A stretch of DNA of 64,000 bases from Halorussus vallis. Its GTDB lineage: Archaea; Halobacteriota; Halobacteria; Halobacteriales; Haladaptataceae. The position numbers were made by a program, and so were the translations under genes. The stretch is from assembly GCF_024138165.1 (NCBI RefSeq), contig NZ_CP100002.1, positions 62,001 to 126,000 on the forward strand, read 5' to 3'. Below the pieces are notes generated by a model that saw nothing but the letters and a program-made list of their open reading frames with translations, ran no database searches and had not been told where the DNA came from. Position 1 is the first letter of the stretch, and the number at the start of each line of letters is the position of its first letter. Shown piece after piece: positions 50,368 through 57,931 of the stretch.

Positions 50368-51354
50368 ATGGAACGACACGACTGGTGGTTTCTCGATCTC
50401 ATGGCGGTCCTCGCCTACGCGGGGGTCGCCGCGTTCGCCATTCGGGGCGGCGTCGAGGGCCTCGCCCGCGTCGCGCTGGTGGTGCCGTTCGTCGTCTTCG
50501 TCCCCGGCTACGCGCTCGTCGCGGCCGTCTATCCGCGCCGGAGCGACCCGACGGCGGTGCCCCACTTCGACGACGAGGCCCCACCGCCGGACCGCTACGC
50601 GGTCGGCGGCGTCGAGCGGTTCGCGCTCTCGGTCGTGGTGAGCGTCGCCGTGGTCCCGATGGTCGCGGCGGTCGCCAACTTCACGCCGTGGGGTATCACG
50701 CTGTTCGCGGTGCTGGCCGGCGTCTGTATCGCGACGGCGGTGTTCACGCTCGCGGCCGCGGTCGCCCGACTGCTCGCGACGCCCGAAGAGCGGTTCGCGA
50801 TCTCGCCGTGGTCGCTCGGCCGAATCGGGACGGTGCTGTTCGGCCCGCGCCGCGACGACGGGACGACCGTGCGCGCGCTCAACGTCCTGCTGGTCGTCTC
50901 GATGCTGTTGGTGGTCGCCAGCGCGGGCTACGCCGCGACTCAGGAACCCAAGACCGACCAGTTCACCGAACTCTACTTGGTCAGCGACGACGGCGGCAAG
51001 AAGGGGTCGCCGCCGTCCTACGACGGGACGCTGCAGCGGGGCCAGTCCCAATCGTACACCGTGGCCATCGAGAACCGCGAGGGCGAGCAGACGCACTACA
51101 CCGTGGTGATTCAGCTCCAGCGAATCGAGACCACCGACTCCGGCGTGCGGGTGAAGTCGGCCGACCGACTCGGTACGTTCGAGAAGACGGTCGGGAACCG
51201 CGAGACGTACAACCACACCCACGAGGTTACGCCGACCGCCGCGGGCGAGAACCTCCGTATCGCTTACCTGCTCTACAAGGGCGACCCGCCGAAGAACCCG
51301 ACGACGGAGAACGCCTACCGGGTCCTGGACATGCCGGTCAACGTCTCCGGGTGA
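50368..51354 (+). CDS. DUF1616-family membrane protein
   Basis: A 328-residue protein. Four or five membrane helices are predicted in the first 200 residues (DLMAVLAYAGVAAFAIRGG, VALVVPFVVFVPGYALVAAV, ALSVVVSVAVVPMVAAVA, GITLFAVLAGVCIATAVFTL, ALNVLLVVSMLLVVASAGYA). An extracellular beta-rich domain follows with FTELYLVSDDGGKKGSPPSY and QSYTVAIENREGEQTHYTVV, the DUF1616 hallmark. Leaderless start: GATAATAAAC about 31 nt upstream of the ATG. It is followed two bases later by a membrane hydrolase gene, forming an operon. DUF1616 genes often sit in archaeal surface-glycan clusters. Confidence 0.9.
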   Translation: MERHDWWFLDLMAVLAYAGVAAFAIRGGVEGLARVALVVPFVVFVPGYALVAAVYPRRSDPTAVPHFDDEAPPPDRYAVGGVERFALSVVVSVAVVPMVAAVANFTPWGITLFAVLAGVCIATAVFTLAAAVARLLATPEERFAISPWSLGRIGTVLFGPRRDDGTTVRALNVLLVVSMLLVVASAGYAATQEPKTDQFTELYLVSDDGGKKGSPPSYDGTLQRGQSQSYTVAIENREGEQTHYTVVIQLQRIETTDSGVRVKSADRLGTFEKTVGNRETYNHTHEVTPTAAGENLRIAYLLYKGDPPKNPTTENAYRVLDMPVNVSG

Positions 51355-51356
51355 CC

Positions 51357-51944
51357 ATGTTCCCCTGGGAACACGTCGCCTTCGGCTACCTGTGCTACTC
51401 GGTGCTCGCCCACCTGCTCGGACGGACGCCCAGCGACGGCGCCGCGGTCGCGGTGGTGGTCGCCACGCTCGGCCCGGACGTGGTCGACAAGACGCTCTCG
51501 TGGGTCCTCAACGTCTTCCCGCAGGGCTACTCGGTCGCCCACTCGGTGTTCACCGCGGTCGGCCTCACCGCCCTCGTCATCGTGGCCGCTGAGCGTCGCG
51601 ACCGCCCGCTGACAGGCGTCGCGTTCGGCGTCGCCTACCTCTCGCACCTCGTCGGCGACGTGGTCTACCCCGTCGCGTTCGGCGACCCGATACGGTTCGA
51701 GAAGGTGCTGTGGCCGCTGGTGAAACTTCCGGCCTACGAGCGGGAGGTCAGCGCCCTCGAGCGGTTCCTCTACTACACCGACCGCTACCTCGAACAGTTG
51801 GTCGCGCTGGAACCGGACCCGTTCCTCCTCGGGGAGTTCGGGTTCCTGTTCGCGGCGTTCGCGCTGTGGGTCTACGACGGCGCGCCCGGTCTGGCGGGCC
51901 TGTGGACGCTGGTCGCACCGGACCCCGACGAGCGGGCCGCGTAG
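51357..51944 (+). CDS. Membrane-bound metal-dependent hydrolase (YdjM/DUF457-like)
   Basis: A 195-residue integral membrane protein with four helices and metal-binding residues conserved in this family: FPWEHVAFGYL (Glu, His), TLGPDVVDK (Asp), GYSVAHSVF (His) and LSHLVGDVV (His, Asp). Start at 51357, two bases after the previous stop, so translationally linked to the DUF1616 gene. The substrate is unknown. A long hairpin lies 22 bases after its stop. Confidence 0.85.
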   Translation: MFPWEHVAFGYLCYSVLAHLLGRTPSDGAAVAVVVATLGPDVVDKTLSWVLNVFPQGYSVAHSVFTAVGLTALVIVAAERRDRPLTGVAFGVAYLSHLVGDVVYPVAFGDPIRFEKVLWPLVKLPAYEREVSALERFLYYTDRYLEQLVALEPDPFLLGEFGFLFAAFALWVYDGAPGLAGLWTLVAPDPDERAA

Positions 51945-52051: not shown

Positions 52052-52125
52052 CCTTTAAGTGATTCTGGCGACAACGGAGAGATATAGACGAGGTGTGGCC
52101 GCCGAACCGGCCACACCGAACTTTT
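52052..52125 (+). ncRNA. Repeat unit 1: putative tiny RNA gene (TATA box, conserved block, hairpin, T-tract)
   Basis: Starts with the TATA-like CCTTTAAGT (52052-52060) and the conserved block GGCGACAACGGAGAGATATA with GACG, then a hairpin with perfect 10-bp arms 52092-52101 and 52108-52117, then CTTTT. Assuming transcription about 25 nt after the box, the RNA would begin near 52081 and end in the T-tract, about 45 nt. A further GAGTCGC follows at 52147-52153. Unit boundaries are those of the shared sequence. Confidence 0.5.
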
Positions 52126-52212
52126 CGCGTCGGTACTCGTTTCGTCGAGTCGCAGGTATTACCGGAACCGTCTCGTCGCCGGGCGTTCACGTGGTCTGTG
52201 ACCGCGCGATTT

Positions 52213-52286
52213 CCTTTAAGTCGTTCTAGCGACAACGGAGAGATATAGACGGGATGCGCCCGGTGCGCCAGGTGCACCGAATTTCT
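52213..52286 (+). ncRNA. Repeat unit 2: putative tiny RNA gene
   Basis: Same layout as unit 1, 161 bp downstream. Box CCTTTAAGT at 52213-52221 and the same conserved block with two changes. The hairpin (52255-52263 with 52268-52276) has one G-T pair and one C-A mismatch, making it the weakest of the five. The T-tract is interrupted (ATTTCT). The downstream box reads GAGTAGC at 52305. Confidence 0.45.
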
Positions 52287-52367
52287 CTCACCGATTTCTT
52301 CCCGGAGTAGCATCGCTCGCCGGACGGTCCTCTTGTCGAGTCAGTAGGATCGTCGACCGTGCGATTT

Positions 52368-52441
52368 TCTTTAAGTAGTTCTGGCGACAACGGAGAGATA
52401 TAGACGGAGTGCGCCCGGCACGCCGGGCGTACGGTGCTTTT
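52368..52441 (+). ncRNA. Repeat unit 3: putative tiny RNA gene
   Basis: Same layout, 155 bp after unit 2. Box TCTTTAAGT at 52368-52376. Hairpin arms 52409-52418 and 52423-52432 pair at all ten positions with one G-T pair, then GCTTTT. GAGTCGC recurs at 52464-52470, offset 96 from the box as in unit 4. Confidence 0.5.
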
Positions 52442-52529
52442 CGCGTGGATTCTCGTCTGCTCGGAGTCGCGAGTATCGCTAGGGCGCGGATTTCGACGGG
52501 CATCCGGGCGGTTGGCGACGGTTCGGTTT

Positions 52530-52603
52530 CCTTTAAGTAGCTCTCGCGATAACGGGGAGATATAGACGAGGTGTGCCCGCTCCGGCGGGTGCACCGCGCT
52601 TTT
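52530..52603 (+). ncRNA. Repeat unit 4: putative tiny RNA gene
   Basis: Same layout, 162 bp after unit 3. Box CCTTTAAGT at 52530-52538 followed by AGCTCTCGC, as after the rdfA TATA element. Arms 52570-52580 and 52585-52595 pair at 11 positions, including two adjacent G-T type pairs where DNA complementarity is lost but RNA pairing is kept. T-tract CTTTT ends at 52603. GAGTCGC at 52626-52632. The TetR gene begins 107 nt later. Confidence 0.5.
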
Positions 52604-52709
52604 CGCGTCAGGTTCCGATTATCCAGAGTCGCACCGCTCGTCGAGCGGTACGACTCGGTTACCGGCGCAGGCCGCGGGTATAATACGTACTCCCCTCATA
52701 TCAGCCGGT

Positions 52710-53348
52710 ATGACTCCACCGCCCGAATCCGACTCCTCCGCGGAGACGCGAAAGGCCATCATGGAGGCGACGTTCCGCGCGCTCAGCGAGCACGGATACA
52801 CCGACCTGCGAATGCGAGACATCGGCGCGGAGTTCGAGATGAGCCGGCCGCTCATCCACTACCACTACGACGGGAAACACGAACTCATCTCGGCGTTCCT
52901 CGAATACATAATCGAACAGTACGAGGGGAGCGTGGAGGTCGACCCGGACGCCGACCCGCGGACGGAGCTCGACGCCAGAATCGACCAGTGTCTGTTCGGT
53001 CCCGACTTCGACGACGATTTCGGCCACTGGGACCGGATGAAGGTGTACCACGAACTGTTCTCGCAGGCCCAGCACAACGAACGTCACAGGGAGACGTTCA
53101 ACGAACACTACAGCAAGATTCGAGGGAGCATCACGCAGGTCATCGAGCGGGGAATCGAGGAGGGCGTCTTCCGGGAGGTCGACGCGGAGGACATGGCTCA
53201 ACTCGTCACCGACGTCATCCACGCCGCTCGCGGGCGGCGAATCTCGCTCGGACACGACGATGCCCCGGAACAGGCGCGACGCGCGGTGGACGAGTTCGTC
53301 CTCTCTTCGCTGGTTGCCGACGAAGCGGCGGTCACGGAGCGAGCGTGA
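52710..53348 (+). CDS. TetR/AcrR-family transcriptional regulator
   Basis: A 212-residue regulator. The N-terminal HTH (about 12-58) is AIMEATFRALSEHGYTDLRM followed by DIGAEFEMSRPLIHYHYDGK; the C-terminal ligand domain (about 70-205) is helical and acidic with no recognised ligand motif. A TATA-like TATAATA (about 52679-52685) is about 27 nt before the ATG. It follows the repeat array; regulation of the array or of an unseen efflux gene is possible but not shown. Confidence 0.9.
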   Translation: MTPPPESDSSAETRKAIMEATFRALSEHGYTDLRMRDIGAEFEMSRPLIHYHYDGKHELISAFLEYIIEQYEGSVEVDPDADPRTELDARIDQCLFGPDFDDDFGHWDRMKVYHELFSQAQHNERHRETFNEHYSKIRGSITQVIERGIEEGVFREVDAEDMAQLVTDVIHAARGRRISLGHDDAPEQARRAVDEFVLSSLVADEAAVTERA

Positions 53349-53813
53349 AGTCGCTCTCGGTCTGGTAGAATCACAGCGTCGCCACCGCCTTTCCCCCGCC
53401 GAACGGAATCGCGGTCGCCGGTCAGTCCGGTCGAGCGCGCTACTCGAACTTCTACGATTCGGTCGGCGTTCTTCGAGTTTCCCGGATGCTAGTGTCAGTT
53501 AGCGTTCTCCCCCCTTTTCCGCCCGAAGGCGCGCAGTATCGCCGTCGGAGGGACGGTCGAAGCCGACTCGACCGCCCGGACGAGCCGTTGACCAGGTGGT
53601 AAACACTATATACCGACCCGCGCATGTAACGTACGATGCTAACAGCTACCGGGCGAACGACTTGCACAGGGTGGGAAGGCCAATACGAGAGGGGGTCGGA
53701 GTGACGCCGGTCGCGCAGTCGCGCGGCCGCGCCGACGAACGACCGCATCGAACGCGGAAGCGACCGTATCGCACGCGGAAACGACCGAACGCGAAAACGC
53801 TACCGACGGACAC
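53349..53813 (+). other. Intergenic stretch: promoter and tandem imperfect repeats
   Basis: About 465 bp with no convincing gene. A strong TATA-like CACTATATACC lies near 53606, about 200 nt before the next start. Near 53748-53805 an imperfect tandem unit of about 20 nt occurs three times (CGAACGCGGAAGCGACCG and close variants), directly before the FAH gene. Otherwise nothing is seen. Confidence 0.5.
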
Positions 53814-54698
53814 ATGAGACTCGGACAGTTCGAGACGGAAGAGGCGGGCGAACCGTGGGCCGGCGTCGTCCTGGAAGACGACGTCGTGCATCTAGAGCAA
53901 GCCGGAAGCGCGGCGGGAATCGAGTTACCGCGAGAACTCCGGGCGGTACTCGCGGAGTGGCGCTGGGAGGAGAAGGTCGAACTCGCCGCGTCGTACGGCC
54001 GGGAGACGGGCGTCGGGAGGTACGCCGCCGACGAAGTCGAGCGGGTCGCGCCGATCACGGACCCGCAGAAGGTCGTCGCGGTCGGACTGAACTACAGCGA
54101 GCACGCGGACGAGGGGGAGTTCGACGTTCCGGACTCGCCGGTCCTGTTCGCGAAGTTCCCCCAGTCGTTGGTCGGTCCGGACGCGACCGTCGAGTGGGAC
54201 CCCGAACTGACCAGTGCGGTCGACTACGAGGGCGAACTCGTGGCCGTCGTCGGGAAGCGAGCGCGGAACGTCAGCGAGGAGGACGCGCTCGACCACGTGG
54301 CCGGGTACACGGTCGGCAACGACGTCTCGGCCCGCGACCTCCAGAACGCCGACGAGCAGTGGGTTCGGGGCAAGAGTCTCGACACGTTCGGTCCCATCGG
54401 CCCGGACCTCGTGACCCCCGACGAGATCGACGACCCCCACGACCTGGACATCTGGACCGAAGTGAACGGCGAGCGGTTGCAGGACTCCAACACCGAACAC
54501 CTGATCTTCGGCATCGACGAGATACTCTCGTTCTGTAGCCGCTCGTTCACGCTGAACCCCGGCGACGTTATCTACACCGGGACGCCCGACGGCGTCGGCT
54601 TCTTCCGCGACCCCCAGGTCCTGCTCGAAGACGGCGACACCGTCACGGTGAACGTCGAAGGCGTCGGCGAACTCACGAACCACTGTCGGCAGGTGTGA
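53814..54698 (+). CDS. Fumarylacetoacetate hydrolase-family protein
   Basis: A 294-residue enzyme with an intact FAH site: VGLNYSEHADEG, FAKFPQSLVGP, the metal-binding VDYEGELVAVVGK (both Glu present), NDVSARDLQ and the C-terminal FTLNPGDVIYTGTPDGVGFF. Members hydrolyse C-C bonds of 2,4-diketo acids or act on 2-keto acids in aromatic and sugar pathways. The next gene is a ring-cleavage-type VOC protein, which makes an aromatic meta-cleavage role plausible. Start at 53814 is the family N-terminus (MRLGQF). Unlike the FAH protein at 27758, its ligands are complete. Confidence 0.92.
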   Translation: MRLGQFETEEAGEPWAGVVLEDDVVHLEQAGSAAGIELPRELRAVLAEWRWEEKVELAASYGRETGVGRYAADEVERVAPITDPQKVVAVGLNYSEHADEGEFDVPDSPVLFAKFPQSLVGPDATVEWDPELTSAVDYEGELVAVVGKRARNVSEEDALDHVAGYTVGNDVSARDLQNADEQWVRGKSLDTFGPIGPDLVTPDEIDDPHDLDIWTEVNGERLQDSNTEHLIFGIDEILSFCSRSFTLNPGDVIYTGTPDGVGFFRDPQVLLEDGDTVTVNVEGVGELTNHCRQV

Positions 54699-54793
54699 GT
54701 CGCCGGTCCGGCGACCCCCACGGGTGTTGTAAGTAATCCTACGTAACGATAGATATATGTGGTTTTACCGCTTGGTCAGGAACGGAGGCTACC

Positions 54794-55741
54794 ATGGGAC
54801 AGATTAACGGTCTACATCACGTGACGGCGTTCGCGAGCGACGCACAGGCGAACCTCGACTTCTTCCGGAAGGTCCTCGGTCTGCGGTTCGTCAAGCGGAC
54901 GGTGCGCTTCGACATTCCCGAGAAGATATACCACCTATACTACGGCGACGAAGCGGGGTCCGCGGGGTCGATAGTGACGTTCTTCCCCATCGAGGACATG
55001 CCGGAGGGGAACATCGGCAAGGGCGGACTCAGCGGGTGCGGACTGGTCATCCCGGAGGACTCCGTCGACTACTGGACGGACCGATTCGGCGAACACGACG
55101 TCGAGTACGAGGTCACCGAGCGGTTCGACGAGACGGCCATCGAGTTCTCCGACCCGGACGGCACGCCGTTCGAACTCGTCACGGGCGAGTCCGACATCGA
55201 GCCGTGGGACGGCGGCGACGTCCCCGCCGAACACGGCATCCGGGGACTCCACAGCGTGACGGTGCACTCGAACGACCCCGCGGGGTCGTTCCGAGCCCTG
55301 GAGACGATGGGCTGGGAGCGCGTGGGTCGGCAGGACTACCCCCAGGCGGGTGACCGCGTCCGGTTCCAGGCGCCCGGCGACGGCACGGGCGCGGAGTTCG
55401 TCGACGTTCTCATCCGACCGAACGCCCCGCAGGCGGTGATGGGAACCGGCACCTTCCTGCACATCGCGTTCGACGCGGGCGAGAAGTGGGAGCAGAAGGA
55501 GTGGAGCAACCGATTCCGCGACGAGGGCCTCATCACGACGTCCCGGAAGGACCGCGACTACTTCTGGTCGATGTACTTCACCGAACCTGGCGGATCGGTG
55601 TTCGAGTTCGCGACCACGGGGCCGGGCGTCACGCTCGACGAGGACGTCGACGAACTCGGCGAGACCCTCAAGGTCCCCGACTGGCTCGACGTCGACATCG
55701 AGTACATCGAGGAGCAACTCCCGGACATCACCGTCGACTGA
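54794..55741 (+). CDS. VOC-family ring-cleaving dioxygenase-like protein
   Basis: A 315-residue protein with two vicinal-oxygen-chelate domains (about 1-140 and 147-300). Metal-ligand candidates are His in INGLHHVTAFA, His in IRGLHSVTVHS, His in FLHIAFDAG and Glu in GSVFEFATTG. It resembles the MhqO/MhqA-type hydroquinone dioxygenases. A Shine-Dalgarno GGAGG lies four to nine bases before the ATG and a TATA-like GATATATG about 43 nt upstream, so a short leader is used. With the FAH gene 95 nt upstream it suggests breakdown of an aromatic or quinone compound. Confidence 0.85.
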   Translation: MGQINGLHHVTAFASDAQANLDFFRKVLGLRFVKRTVRFDIPEKIYHLYYGDEAGSAGSIVTFFPIEDMPEGNIGKGGLSGCGLVIPEDSVDYWTDRFGEHDVEYEVTERFDETAIEFSDPDGTPFELVTGESDIEPWDGGDVPAEHGIRGLHSVTVHSNDPAGSFRALETMGWERVGRQDYPQAGDRVRFQAPGDGTGAEFVDVLIRPNAPQAVMGTGTFLHIAFDAGEKWEQKEWSNRFRDEGLITTSRKDRDYFWSMYFTEPGGSVFEFATTGPGVTLDEDVDELGETLKVPDWLDVDIEYIEEQLPDITVD

Positions 55742-55928
55742 CCGCGACCGACGACCCGCGGTTTTCCCGTCGAGTCGAGCGCCGTGCGAGCGGCGGCCGC
55801 CGCTCGCACGGTGCTCGGACGACGGACCCGAACGTGCCGACGACGGACCCTGACGCTCGGACCGCGCGCTCGGCTTCGAGTCCGGGACAGCCGAAGAACG
55901 TTACACGACGATTCCCGAACGACACACG

Positions 55929-56927
55929 ATGGACTCACGCTACCCGACGAAGCGACCGATAGACGCAGACCACCTCGACGAGGACGCGACTTCCGAGTTC
56001 CCGCCCGAGTTGACCAACGTCCCGTGGATAGACGTCCACAACCACGCCCACACGCTGTCGTGGAACGACCGGGAGAAGTTCGCGCTGAGCGGCTGTCAGG
56101 GCATGGTGATGATGGCGGCGGGGTACTACTGGACGCCGTACAAGCCGGTCGCGCCCGACGACGTCCGGTACCTCTGGGACGACGCGCTCAACCGACTCGA
56201 CCAGATTCGACAGTCCCACGTCTTCGACGCGAAACTCGGCGTCGGCATTCACACCGGCGCGCGGGTCGACGACTACGAGGAACTGCTCTCGGTGATGCCG
56301 GAGTACTGCGCGCTGGAGGAGGTCGCCGCGGTCGGCGAAATCGGAATCACGGACTCACAGCACGTCTCGCGCTGGGACCTCGACGACCAGAAGGAGGTGA
56401 CGCGACGTCAGATGGAGATCGCGGCCGACCACGACCTGCCCGCGGTCGTCCACACCCCGCCGAACCTGGAGGACGTCGACATCCCGTTCCGCGAGCGCGG
56501 CCCGATTCCGGGCTACGAACTCGACATGAGCCTCCAGCAGGACCCCGTCCTCGAAGCCGAGGACGTCAAGCGGGCGGCGACGGAACTCGACGTCGAGATG
56601 AAGGACGAAGCGGGACTGGCCGACGACAAACTAGTGCTCTCGCACGCCGACCGGAGCGTCGCGCCCTACGTCATGGAGAACACCGACTGCTACCTGAGTT
56701 TCACCGTGAGCTATCCGTGGCTGCTCGGGGTGACGCCGCGGGACGTCGCCGCGGTCATCGAGGAGTACGGTCCCGACCGCGTGCTGGTCGAAACCGACAG
56801 CGCGGGCGTGCTCCGCAGCGACATCTTCTCGTTCAAGCGGACGATTTTCGAACTCTACCGGATGGGAATCGACGTCGAAACCATCAGACAGGTCGTCTAC
56901 GAGAATCCGCGGCGCCTCCTGGACTGA
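55929..56927 (+). CDS. TatD-like metal-dependent hydrolase
   Basis: A 332-residue TIM-barrel hydrolase of the TatD group of the amidohydrolase superfamily. Metal-binding motifs are PWIDVHNHAHTL, AVGEIGITDS, AVVHTPPN, LVLSHADRS and VLVETDSAG in the canonical order. TatD proteins are nucleases or act on small phosphoesters and lactones; length here is 60-70 residues above usual because of an N-terminal lead and an insertion at about 190-225. It follows the VOC gene by 187 nt. Substrate is unknown. Confidence 0.85.
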   Translation: MDSRYPTKRPIDADHLDEDATSEFPPELTNVPWIDVHNHAHTLSWNDREKFALSGCQGMVMMAAGYYWTPYKPVAPDDVRYLWDDALNRLDQIRQSHVFDAKLGVGIHTGARVDDYEELLSVMPEYCALEEVAAVGEIGITDSQHVSRWDLDDQKEVTRRQMEIAADHDLPAVVHTPPNLEDVDIPFRERGPIPGYELDMSLQQDPVLEAEDVKRAATELDVEMKDEAGLADDKLVLSHADRSVAPYVMENTDCYLSFTVSYPWLLGVTPRDVAAVIEEYGPDRVLVETDSAGVLRSDIFSFKRTIFELYRMGIDVETIRQVVYENPRRLLD

Positions 56928-57021: not shown

Positions 57022-57777
57022 ATGACCCACGGCGGAACCGACCCGCAAGCGGCCTCGTGGCAACACGGGGCGATAGGCGGCGAGCCGAGCGACCGGCCAC
57101 TCAGCCAACGCCCCGGCGACGGGTCGGTCGCGCGTTCGGACCTCCAGCGCGACCAGACGGTACGCCGGTGGGGACCGGTGACGCCCAGCGCGACCCAGAT
57201 CGGCCGGGCGGAGTCGCCCGACGCCGACCTGAGCGAACGCATCCGGCGGATGCACGAGGAACGCCACGCCGCGATGGCGGGCCACAGCAAGCGCGTCCAC
57301 CGCCTCGACAAACTCCGCATCACCCACGCCCTCTGCAACGACCTCTCGCTGACGCCCTGGCAGCGCGACCGCGTCATCGGCGTCATGCAGGACCTCGACC
57401 TCACCGCCTTCGGGAGCCAGCGAGCCATCCCGAAGGTCGCGCTGGTCGTCGTGCGCCACGTCGTCGACCGCGAGCGCGAGCACTACCTCGGCCTCCACGA
57501 CACCGAGTGGATTCGGGAGTTGCCGCCCGAGCGACTCGAAGAACTCTACGACCAGTTCCGCTCCATCACCGACGAGACGCGATTCACCGACCTCGTGGAG
57601 AAACACGGCCTGGACGTGACGAGCCTCAATCGACTTCGGCGCGTCCTGCGTGAGCAGATCGAAGACCAGGGTCTCGAAAGCGCGGTCTACGGCCGGAACC
57701 CCCACCGCGACCCCAACCTCCCGACGATGACCGCCCGCCGCGACGAAGACGAAGGCGAGGACGAAATCCGGGACTGA
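57022..57777 (+). CDS. Haloarchaeal RNA polymerase epsilon subunit-like protein
   Basis: A 251-residue soluble, mostly helical protein. The segment TVRRWGPVTPSATQIGRAES and the later LTPWQRDRVIGVMQDLDLTA, FGSQRAIPKVALVVVRHVVD match, by memory of the family, the haloarchaeal protein named RNA polymerase subunit epsilon, found only in Halobacteria. The central helices also resemble cyclin-box (TFB-like) repeats. Its exact role in transcription is unclear. The first 40 residues are low-complexity, and a later start near VRRWG is possible. A repeat unit like those at 52 kb lies on the other strand, 80 bases after its stop. Confidence 0.6.
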   Translation: MTHGGTDPQAASWQHGAIGGEPSDRPLSQRPGDGSVARSDLQRDQTVRRWGPVTPSATQIGRAESPDADLSERIRRMHEERHAAMAGHSKRVHRLDKLRITHALCNDLSLTPWQRDRVIGVMQDLDLTAFGSQRAIPKVALVVVRHVVDREREHYLGLHDTEWIRELPPERLEELYDQFRSITDETRFTDLVEKHGLDVTSLNRLRRVLREQIEDQGLESAVYGRNPHRDPNLPTMTARRDEDEGEDEIRD

Positions 57778-57857
57778 ACCGAGACGAGCGCCCGAGTCCG
57801 ATAGCAGAGACGCGGCGAAAATGCGATAGCAGAAGCTGACAGCGCAAGTCGATGTGA

Positions 57858-57931
57858 AAAATTCTGGTGCGCCCGACGGGCCGGGCGCACTCCGTCTATA
57901 TCTCTCCGTTGTCGCCAGAATCACTTAAAGG
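57858..57931 (-). ncRNA. Repeat unit 5: inverted copy of the putative tiny RNA gene
   Basis: On the minus strand, box CCTTTAAGT is at 57931-57923. 47 bases including the box and its lead are identical to unit 1. The hairpin (arms 57867-57875 and 57882-57890) is a perfect 9-bp stem, and the A-run at 57857-57861 is the T-tract of the minus strand. Box to T-tract is again 74 nt. It would be transcribed towards the RNA polymerase epsilon-like gene. GAGTCGC is not found after it. Confidence 0.5.

Follow-up and report, generated by a model that had tools for sequence, protein, structure and literature searches.

The stretch of Halorussus vallis DNA analyzed here (64,000 nt, contig NZ_CP100002.1, positions 62,001 to 126,000; hereafter, the window) carries four nearly identical short units in head-to-tail order, which raises the question of what these units are and on what they act. 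A reading made from the sequence alone, without database searches (the sequence-only reading), took them for tiny-RNA-like units. It is partly supported: the layout that it described fits everything found in our analysis, while the tie to a gene for RNA polymerase subunit ε, located about 5 kb away, was missed.

Structure of the units and their surroundings in the window

Four direct copies span positions 52,053–52,604 of the plus strand, with CTTTAAGT starting at 52053, 52214, 52369, and 52531 and with start-to-start spacings of 161, 155, and 162. A fifth copy, noticed at 57.9 kb by the sequence-only reading as well, occupies positions 57,930–57,857 of the minus strand (CTTTAAGT starting at 57930) and is aimed at the 3′ end of the ε gene, to which it is convergent. 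The units and the genes around them are as follows, the start of unit 1 being predicted from the rule that the TATA element is located at about −26 (PMC6523106) and from an invariant TA:

50368..51944, plus strand: DUF1616 and YdjM-family membrane protein genes, upstream of the four-unit array
52053..52126, plus strand: unit 1; box 52053–52060, conserved core to 52090, predicted start A52084, hairpin 52092–52117, T-run 52122–52125
52214..52287, plus strand: unit 2; box 52214–52221, predicted start 52245, hairpin 52253–52278, T-rich 52282–52287
52369..52442, plus strand: unit 3; box 52369–52376, predicted start 52400, hairpin 52408–52433, T-run 52438–52441
52531..52604, plus strand: unit 4; box 52531–52538, predicted start 52562, hairpin 52570–52595, T-run 52600–52603
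52710..53348, plus strand: TetR-family regulator, the first gene 3′ of the array, about 105 nt past the last T-run
57022..57777, plus strand: ε gene, 'DNA-directed RNA polymerase subunit epsilon', 251 aa; its annotated counterpart in Halorussus halophilus is 79% identical
57857..57930, minus strand: unit 5; box 57930–57923, predicted start 57899, hairpin 57891–57866, T-run 57861–57857

Every unit opens with the TATA-like CTTTAAGT, continues with a 38-nt block that hardly varies, and ends in a covarying, GC-rich hairpin followed by a T-tract; NNNTCTNGCGAYAACGGRGAGATATAGACG was present ahead of the hairpin in all five. The distance from the box to the end of the T-tract was 74 nt in each of the five units. 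Sequences between the units were unrelated except close to the core. A 23-nt core gave five matches in the window and none in 100 dinucleotide shuffles.

Folding z-scores of the five hairpins were −3.8, −3.7, −2.3, −3.6, and −3.8. The hairpin register was common to all five units, with 91% of cells paired against 29–46% when the register was slid; the observed register was the best of all slides, and three pairs were changed on both sides. Such covariation in five sequences, a small number, supports an RNA hairpin without proving it. A hairpin followed by a U-run at the 3′ end, characteristic of sRNAs with intrinsic terminators, was found in all five units of the window and in a minority of their relatives.

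Neither a protein-coding nor a transposon role, the two other explanations of the conservation named in the sequence-only reading, was upheld: reading frames differed among the units, no start codon was shared, stop codons occurred within the core, and no transposon-like behavior was seen. A CRISPR array, already doubted there on account of the unrelated spacers, was rejected because of the 155–162 bp spacing, the oriented, promoter-like units, and the lack of cas among the neighboring products identified. A viral origin was also rejected, as only two chance-like matches, both without ε, were obtained in IMG/VR. No Rfam 15 family matched the window above the gathering threshold, in agreement with the earlier statement that no named RNA family has this layout.

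The host genome (5.05 Mb, five contigs) contained only these five units and two weaker copies. The latter (L088, G000) were located on the same 240-kb contig at C3:127.4–127.6 kb, 1.4–1.6 kb past the end of the window; both (L088) bear hairpins and adjoin an apparent transposase gene.

Gene order in the window is DUF1616, YdjM-like, the four-unit array, a block of TetR, fumarylacetoacetase-like, glyoxalase-like, and amidohydrolase-like genes (52710–56927), ε, and convergent unit 5. The order in Halorussus halophilus is DUF1616, YdjM-like, one unit, ε, and a convergent unit. The simplest reading of the comparison with this one relative is that the four-gene block was probably inserted between the array and ε, and the array multiplied. 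The TPP-enzyme gene that comes after unit 5 in the window has a relative in another Halorussus genome (L085), which is next to a unit some 5 kb away from ε; this arrangement indicates that insertions and rearrangements around the units recur.

The conserved core among haloarchaea

A search with the conserved block, proposed in the sequence-only reading, revealed hundreds of homologous units in other haloarchaeal genomes. The pattern TTTAAGTNNTTCTNGYGAYAANGGNNAGATA, surveyed with up to 2 mismatches in one genome per species, was found in every one of the family's 28 genomes and in 118 of the 392 genomes of the order; with 3 mismatches allowed, a genome had up to 17 copies, and the reversed pattern gave zero in every genome. 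The fetched loci (1.13 Mb) contained 384 core matches versus 0 in the reversed control. On this sequence evidence, the array in the window is one lineage's version of a haloarchaea-wide family.

The consensus of the core is about 48 bp long and promoter-like: CCG-N4-TTYC-TTTAAGT-NN-TTCTSGYSACAANGGNNNAGATA. Removal of near-duplicates reduced 446 different copies from the fetched loci to 355, which were aligned gap-free on TTTAAGT. The resulting logo showed CCG at −10 to −8, TTYC ahead of the box, and then TTTAAGTGNTTCTGGTSACAAGGTGTAGATACGAAGGG; it was of fixed length from −10 to +37 around TTTAAGT, with TTTA, T29, and A30 practically invariant and with information close to zero past about +47. 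The nearly invariant block described in the sequence-only reading is thus real, with the qualification that its constant part corresponds to the putative promoter region and not to the RNA.

In Halobacterium salinarum, the TATA element is located at −26 and transcription starts at a pyrimidine/purine step (PMC6523106). The same arrangement was recognized in the units, where the invariant TTTAAGT is followed 29–30 nt on by the invariant TA (+29/+30); according to the −26 spacing rule, transcription would start at this TA. We failed to find a purine-rich BRE before the box: positions −3 to −1 were mostly T or C, with A at most 8%.

Downstream of the predicted start, by 8–25 nt, there is a T-rich element. 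A T-rich 4-mer (TTCT, TTTT, TTTC, or CTTT) occurred at positions 36–80, mostly at 38–51, in 351 of the 355 units versus 143 of 355 stretches further on; TTCT alone was found in 241 units versus 48 in the controls. A long hairpin was rejected as a family-wide feature, since a stem of at least 7 pairs was present in 72 of the 355 units versus 34 of the control stretches, and the mean hairpin score was equal to that of shuffles. The clearest hairpins were those of this genome, of G244 (Candidatus Halobonum), of Halarchaeum, and of some Natrialbaceae. The general layout therefore appears to be a promoter core, a gap of 8–21 nt, and a T-rich element, with a hairpin between them in some lineages only. 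The RNA part could not be aligned across lineages. The constant 74-nt length, although confirmed for all five units in the window, does not extend to the family: both it and the hairpin seem to be local, lineage-specific features.

T-rich tracts pause or end transcription in archaea, so the expected product of a unit is a tiny RNA, with a predicted length of about 43 nt, hairpin included, in the window and about 12–25 nt in most relatives.

Two further sequence features were observed. Units of a Haladaptatus sub-family (L010, L013, L017, L093, L105, L106, L108), many of them on plasmid-like contigs, shared a conserved downstream stretch, GATACGAGGAAGATTTTCGCGG.... In many units (L009, L012, L028, L162–L166), a loosely palindromic sequence, AGCNNNGCT or similar, was present about 15–25 nt past the T-rich element.

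Association of the core with subunit ε

In one genome after another, the arrays adjoin one and the same gene, that of ε. A strong ε homolog was encoded in 117 of the 118 genomes positive for the first pattern; the exception was a genome 87% complete. With a relaxed core pattern, 154 of 156 core-positive genomes encoded ε, and 210 of the 212 genomes without a strong ε homolog were also without the core (Fisher p = 3e-78, overstated because the genomes are not independent). The contrast repeats within families and genera. In family f5, the sole genome with a strong ε (G244) was also the sole one with several copies; in genus g17, a unit was found upstream of ε in both ε-positive genomes (G065 and G088), and the other members sampled yielded none. 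The link between the core and ε is statistical, and its chance level is well controlled. One genome (G185) had a single unit-like match and no detected ε, possibly a relic or a chance match.

Among the ε-positive genomes, 26 lacked the pattern; regions were fetched for 20 of them, of which 19 were informative (G211 was left out). A diverged core, TTTAAGTNNTTCTCGYSACAANGG then TTCGTAGTGAGG and similar, was located at ε in 16 of the 19 regions, frequently as an array of two to five; the first half of these cores was constant, and the start region was changed by clade. In the three other regions, all from genus g48 (G125, G261, G276), ε was present and no core was found near it; ε may have switched targets in this genus, or have been left without one.

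Position was scanned around 80 named ε genes, including that of Halobacterium salinarum. These loci contained 238 copies of the core, and the reversed pattern gave 0. At least one unit upstream of ε, in the same orientation, was present in 73 of the 80. Further copies are located downstream and are convergent; altogether, 232 of the 238 copies point at ε. In the type strain of Halobacterium salinarum (contig NZ_VRYN01000002.1), the boxes of the two units upstream of a DsbA-like gene and of ε are at about 471,966 and 472,780. Several ε paralogs per genome were encoded in the Halococcus-like G084, G098, G112, and G122. Each paralog checked in G084, G098, and G122 had its own unit about 100–200 nt upstream.

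A separate TTTAAA-like box of the leaderless type was identified before ε in 18 of the 80 loci, including those of Halobacterium, Halorussus, and others, versus 1 in shuffles, with its position relative to the ATG at −30 to −33 in 17 loci; in many of the remaining loci, the start codon of ε could not be fixed. Besides ε, the units have a conserved second site at menA, a gene named from its sequence and encoding a UbiA-type, menaquinone prenyltransferase-like protein of 313 aa: in eleven Halorussus-type genomes (L019, L027, L029, L074–L081), a unit was located about 98–133 nt upstream of menA, and a conserved stretch was present just before the ATG. The possibility that the unit is itself the mRNA promoter of ε or menA was rejected because the alignments show a second, gene-proximal promoter. 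Other non-ε neighbors of units were a DsbA-like gene and plasmid genes in Haladaptatus. Together with menA, these neighbors indicate that the role of the units is not autoregulation alone.

Subunit ε as a protein

Subunit ε is found in Halobacterium salinarum and in part of the haloarchaea (PMC8305020). As related in that source, which cites Madon and Zillig (1983) and Leffers (1989), ε was found in 1983 as the component that enables the halobacterial polymerase to use native DNA as a template; the ε-containing polymerase is efficient on native templates, in contrast to the ε-free one. The relevance of ε was still called "enigmatic" in this 2021 review (PMC8305020). Our literature search yielded nothing on the motif and nothing on the function of ε beyond the review.

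The protein encoded at 57022–57777 of the window has 79% identity to WP_225741394, the plasmid copy of Halorussus halophilus, and its relatives are annotated as ε in RefSeq. An alignment of 46 ε sequences, the Halobacterium salinarum copy among them, had a mean column identity of 63%. No significant sequence match for ε was obtained in Pfam, NCBIfam, or PDB. Profile comparison revealed no homology to TFB at the sequence level (hhalign against 28 haloarchaeal TFBs, E 0.3), and an N-terminal zinc ribbon was not evident, as the ε alignment contained no CxxC pairs.

The AlphaFold model of ε was confident from residue 88 to about 220 (pLDDT 85–94) and all-helical. Its top structural neighbor was TFIIB in initiation complexes (Z 11.6, rmsd 2.3, 97 residues), followed by Brf2, Pyrococcus TFB (Z 9.9), and cyclins; Z scores are inflated for helical folds such as this predicted one, and Foldseek E-values were poor, the best being 0.18. 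A prediction for the domain alone, made from one sequence, was weak and was set aside. The modeled ε looks like one TFIIB cyclin repeat, without this likeness proving membership in the TFIIB family.

Possible function of the units

We favor, at a probability only slightly on the positive side of even, the reading that the units are self-contained cassettes of promoter plus early stop, in which ε-dependent promoters produce tiny RNAs and feed back on ε. The 48-bp core would represent a promoter class read by the polymerase carrying the accessory subunit ε; it combines a TATA-like element with exceptionally strong conservation from there to the predicted start. Either alone or with TBP, ε would recruit the polymerase to the unit, where TFB has no BRE to bind; initiation would then take place at the invariant TA, about 27–30 nt past the box, with a stop or pause at the T-rich element, giving a tiny RNA. 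The arrays are aimed at ε, either from just upstream of its own promoter or, convergently, from downstream, and because of this aim they could act on ε as a sensor and brake or as a booster: the units may sense and titrate the ε-polymerase, or interfere with or stimulate ε transcription. A bolder version, which we put forward tentatively and consider rather doubtful, makes ε a specificity factor with a single TFIIB-like cyclin domain and its own BRE-less promoter class, to which it takes the polymerase; the main products of this class would be arrays of tiny RNAs around the ε gene, holding or titrating the ε-polymerase in a sigma-like feedback switch. We know of no archaeal counterpart of such a switch.

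Several findings count against the favored reading. Where the T-rich element follows the start by 8–21 nt, the RNAs would be almost too short for transcripts. The cyclin match comes from a predicted helical model with poor Foldseek E-values and no TFB profile homology, genus g48 is ε-positive without a core near ε, and units also occur near menA, the DsbA-like gene, and the Haladaptatus plasmid genes.

The strongest rival explanation makes the unit a DNA operator or enhancer that is bound by ε or ε-TBP and regulates the ordinary promoter of its neighbor, with no RNA of its own and with the T-rich part as a binding site. It agrees with the distances of the units from their neighbors, about 100–250 nt before ε and about 98 nt before menA, both of which have promoters of their own, and with the conservation of the core far past the needs of a TATA promoter. 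Such an operator is, in our opinion, unlikely in view of the fixed orientation (232 of 238 copies toward ε), the invariant spacing of the TATA-like box and the TA start, the hairpins with compensatory changes and T-runs in the window and again in other lineages, and the many copies convergent to the next gene.

Copies that stand alone and converge on unrelated genes, as well as the short hairpin RNAs predicted in this lineage, would also be compatible with ordinary TBP/TFB promoters of trans-acting sRNAs, ε being merely a conserved neighbor and target. What makes this improbable is that sequence conservation lies in the promoter part and is absent from the RNA part, the opposite of what a family of trans-acting sRNAs would show; in addition, there is no BRE, and genomes with copies distant from ε still encode ε. 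A mobile or selfish repeat (REP/MITE-like) or a local duplication spread around ε is strongly disfavored: the head-to-tail arrays, several copies per genome, and copies on plasmid-like contigs are in its favor, but the spacers are unrelated, the core is kept across the entire order, the orientation is nearly always toward ε, and the element is absent from 210 of the 212 genomes without a strong ε homolog.

An element that is present or absent together with ε and points at its gene is a candidate DNA target for a subunit whose role has been a mystery for 40 years, and it turns this role into a testable question. If the reading with ε-dependent promoters is true, the core would be, to our knowledge and within a search that was not exhaustive, the first archaeal promoter class attributed to a factor other than TBP, TFB, and TFE.

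Comparison with known systems

Short RNAs are likewise represented by the TSSaRNAs of Halobacterium salinarum, which result from promoter-proximal pausing (PMC4169567); they use the start site of the gene itself, whereas the units described here are separate from it and their RNAs are predicted. TFB-RF1 of Pyrococcus furiosus (PMC5937170) is an accessory archaeal factor activating weak-BRE promoters, including its own operon region; it differs in that it is a regulator bringing TFB to ordinary promoters and in that it has no arrays of tiny units. With the haloarchaeal TFB/TBP paralogs, which act as promoter selectors, the system has in common the TATA-like box and the resemblance of the ε model to one TFIIB cyclin repeat; unlike them, ε has no zinc ribbon, only one repeat, and no sequence homology that we could find, and its units have no purine-rich BRE. 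Compared with autoregulated alternative sigma factors, such as the bacterial ECF sigma factors, the units are archaeal and have a hairpin or T-rich element at their end, ε is also served by an ordinary promoter of its own, and the factor role of ε is putative; the likeness consists in a specificity-factor gene preceded by its cognate promoter element, in few copies per genome, and in the presence or absence of factor and element together.
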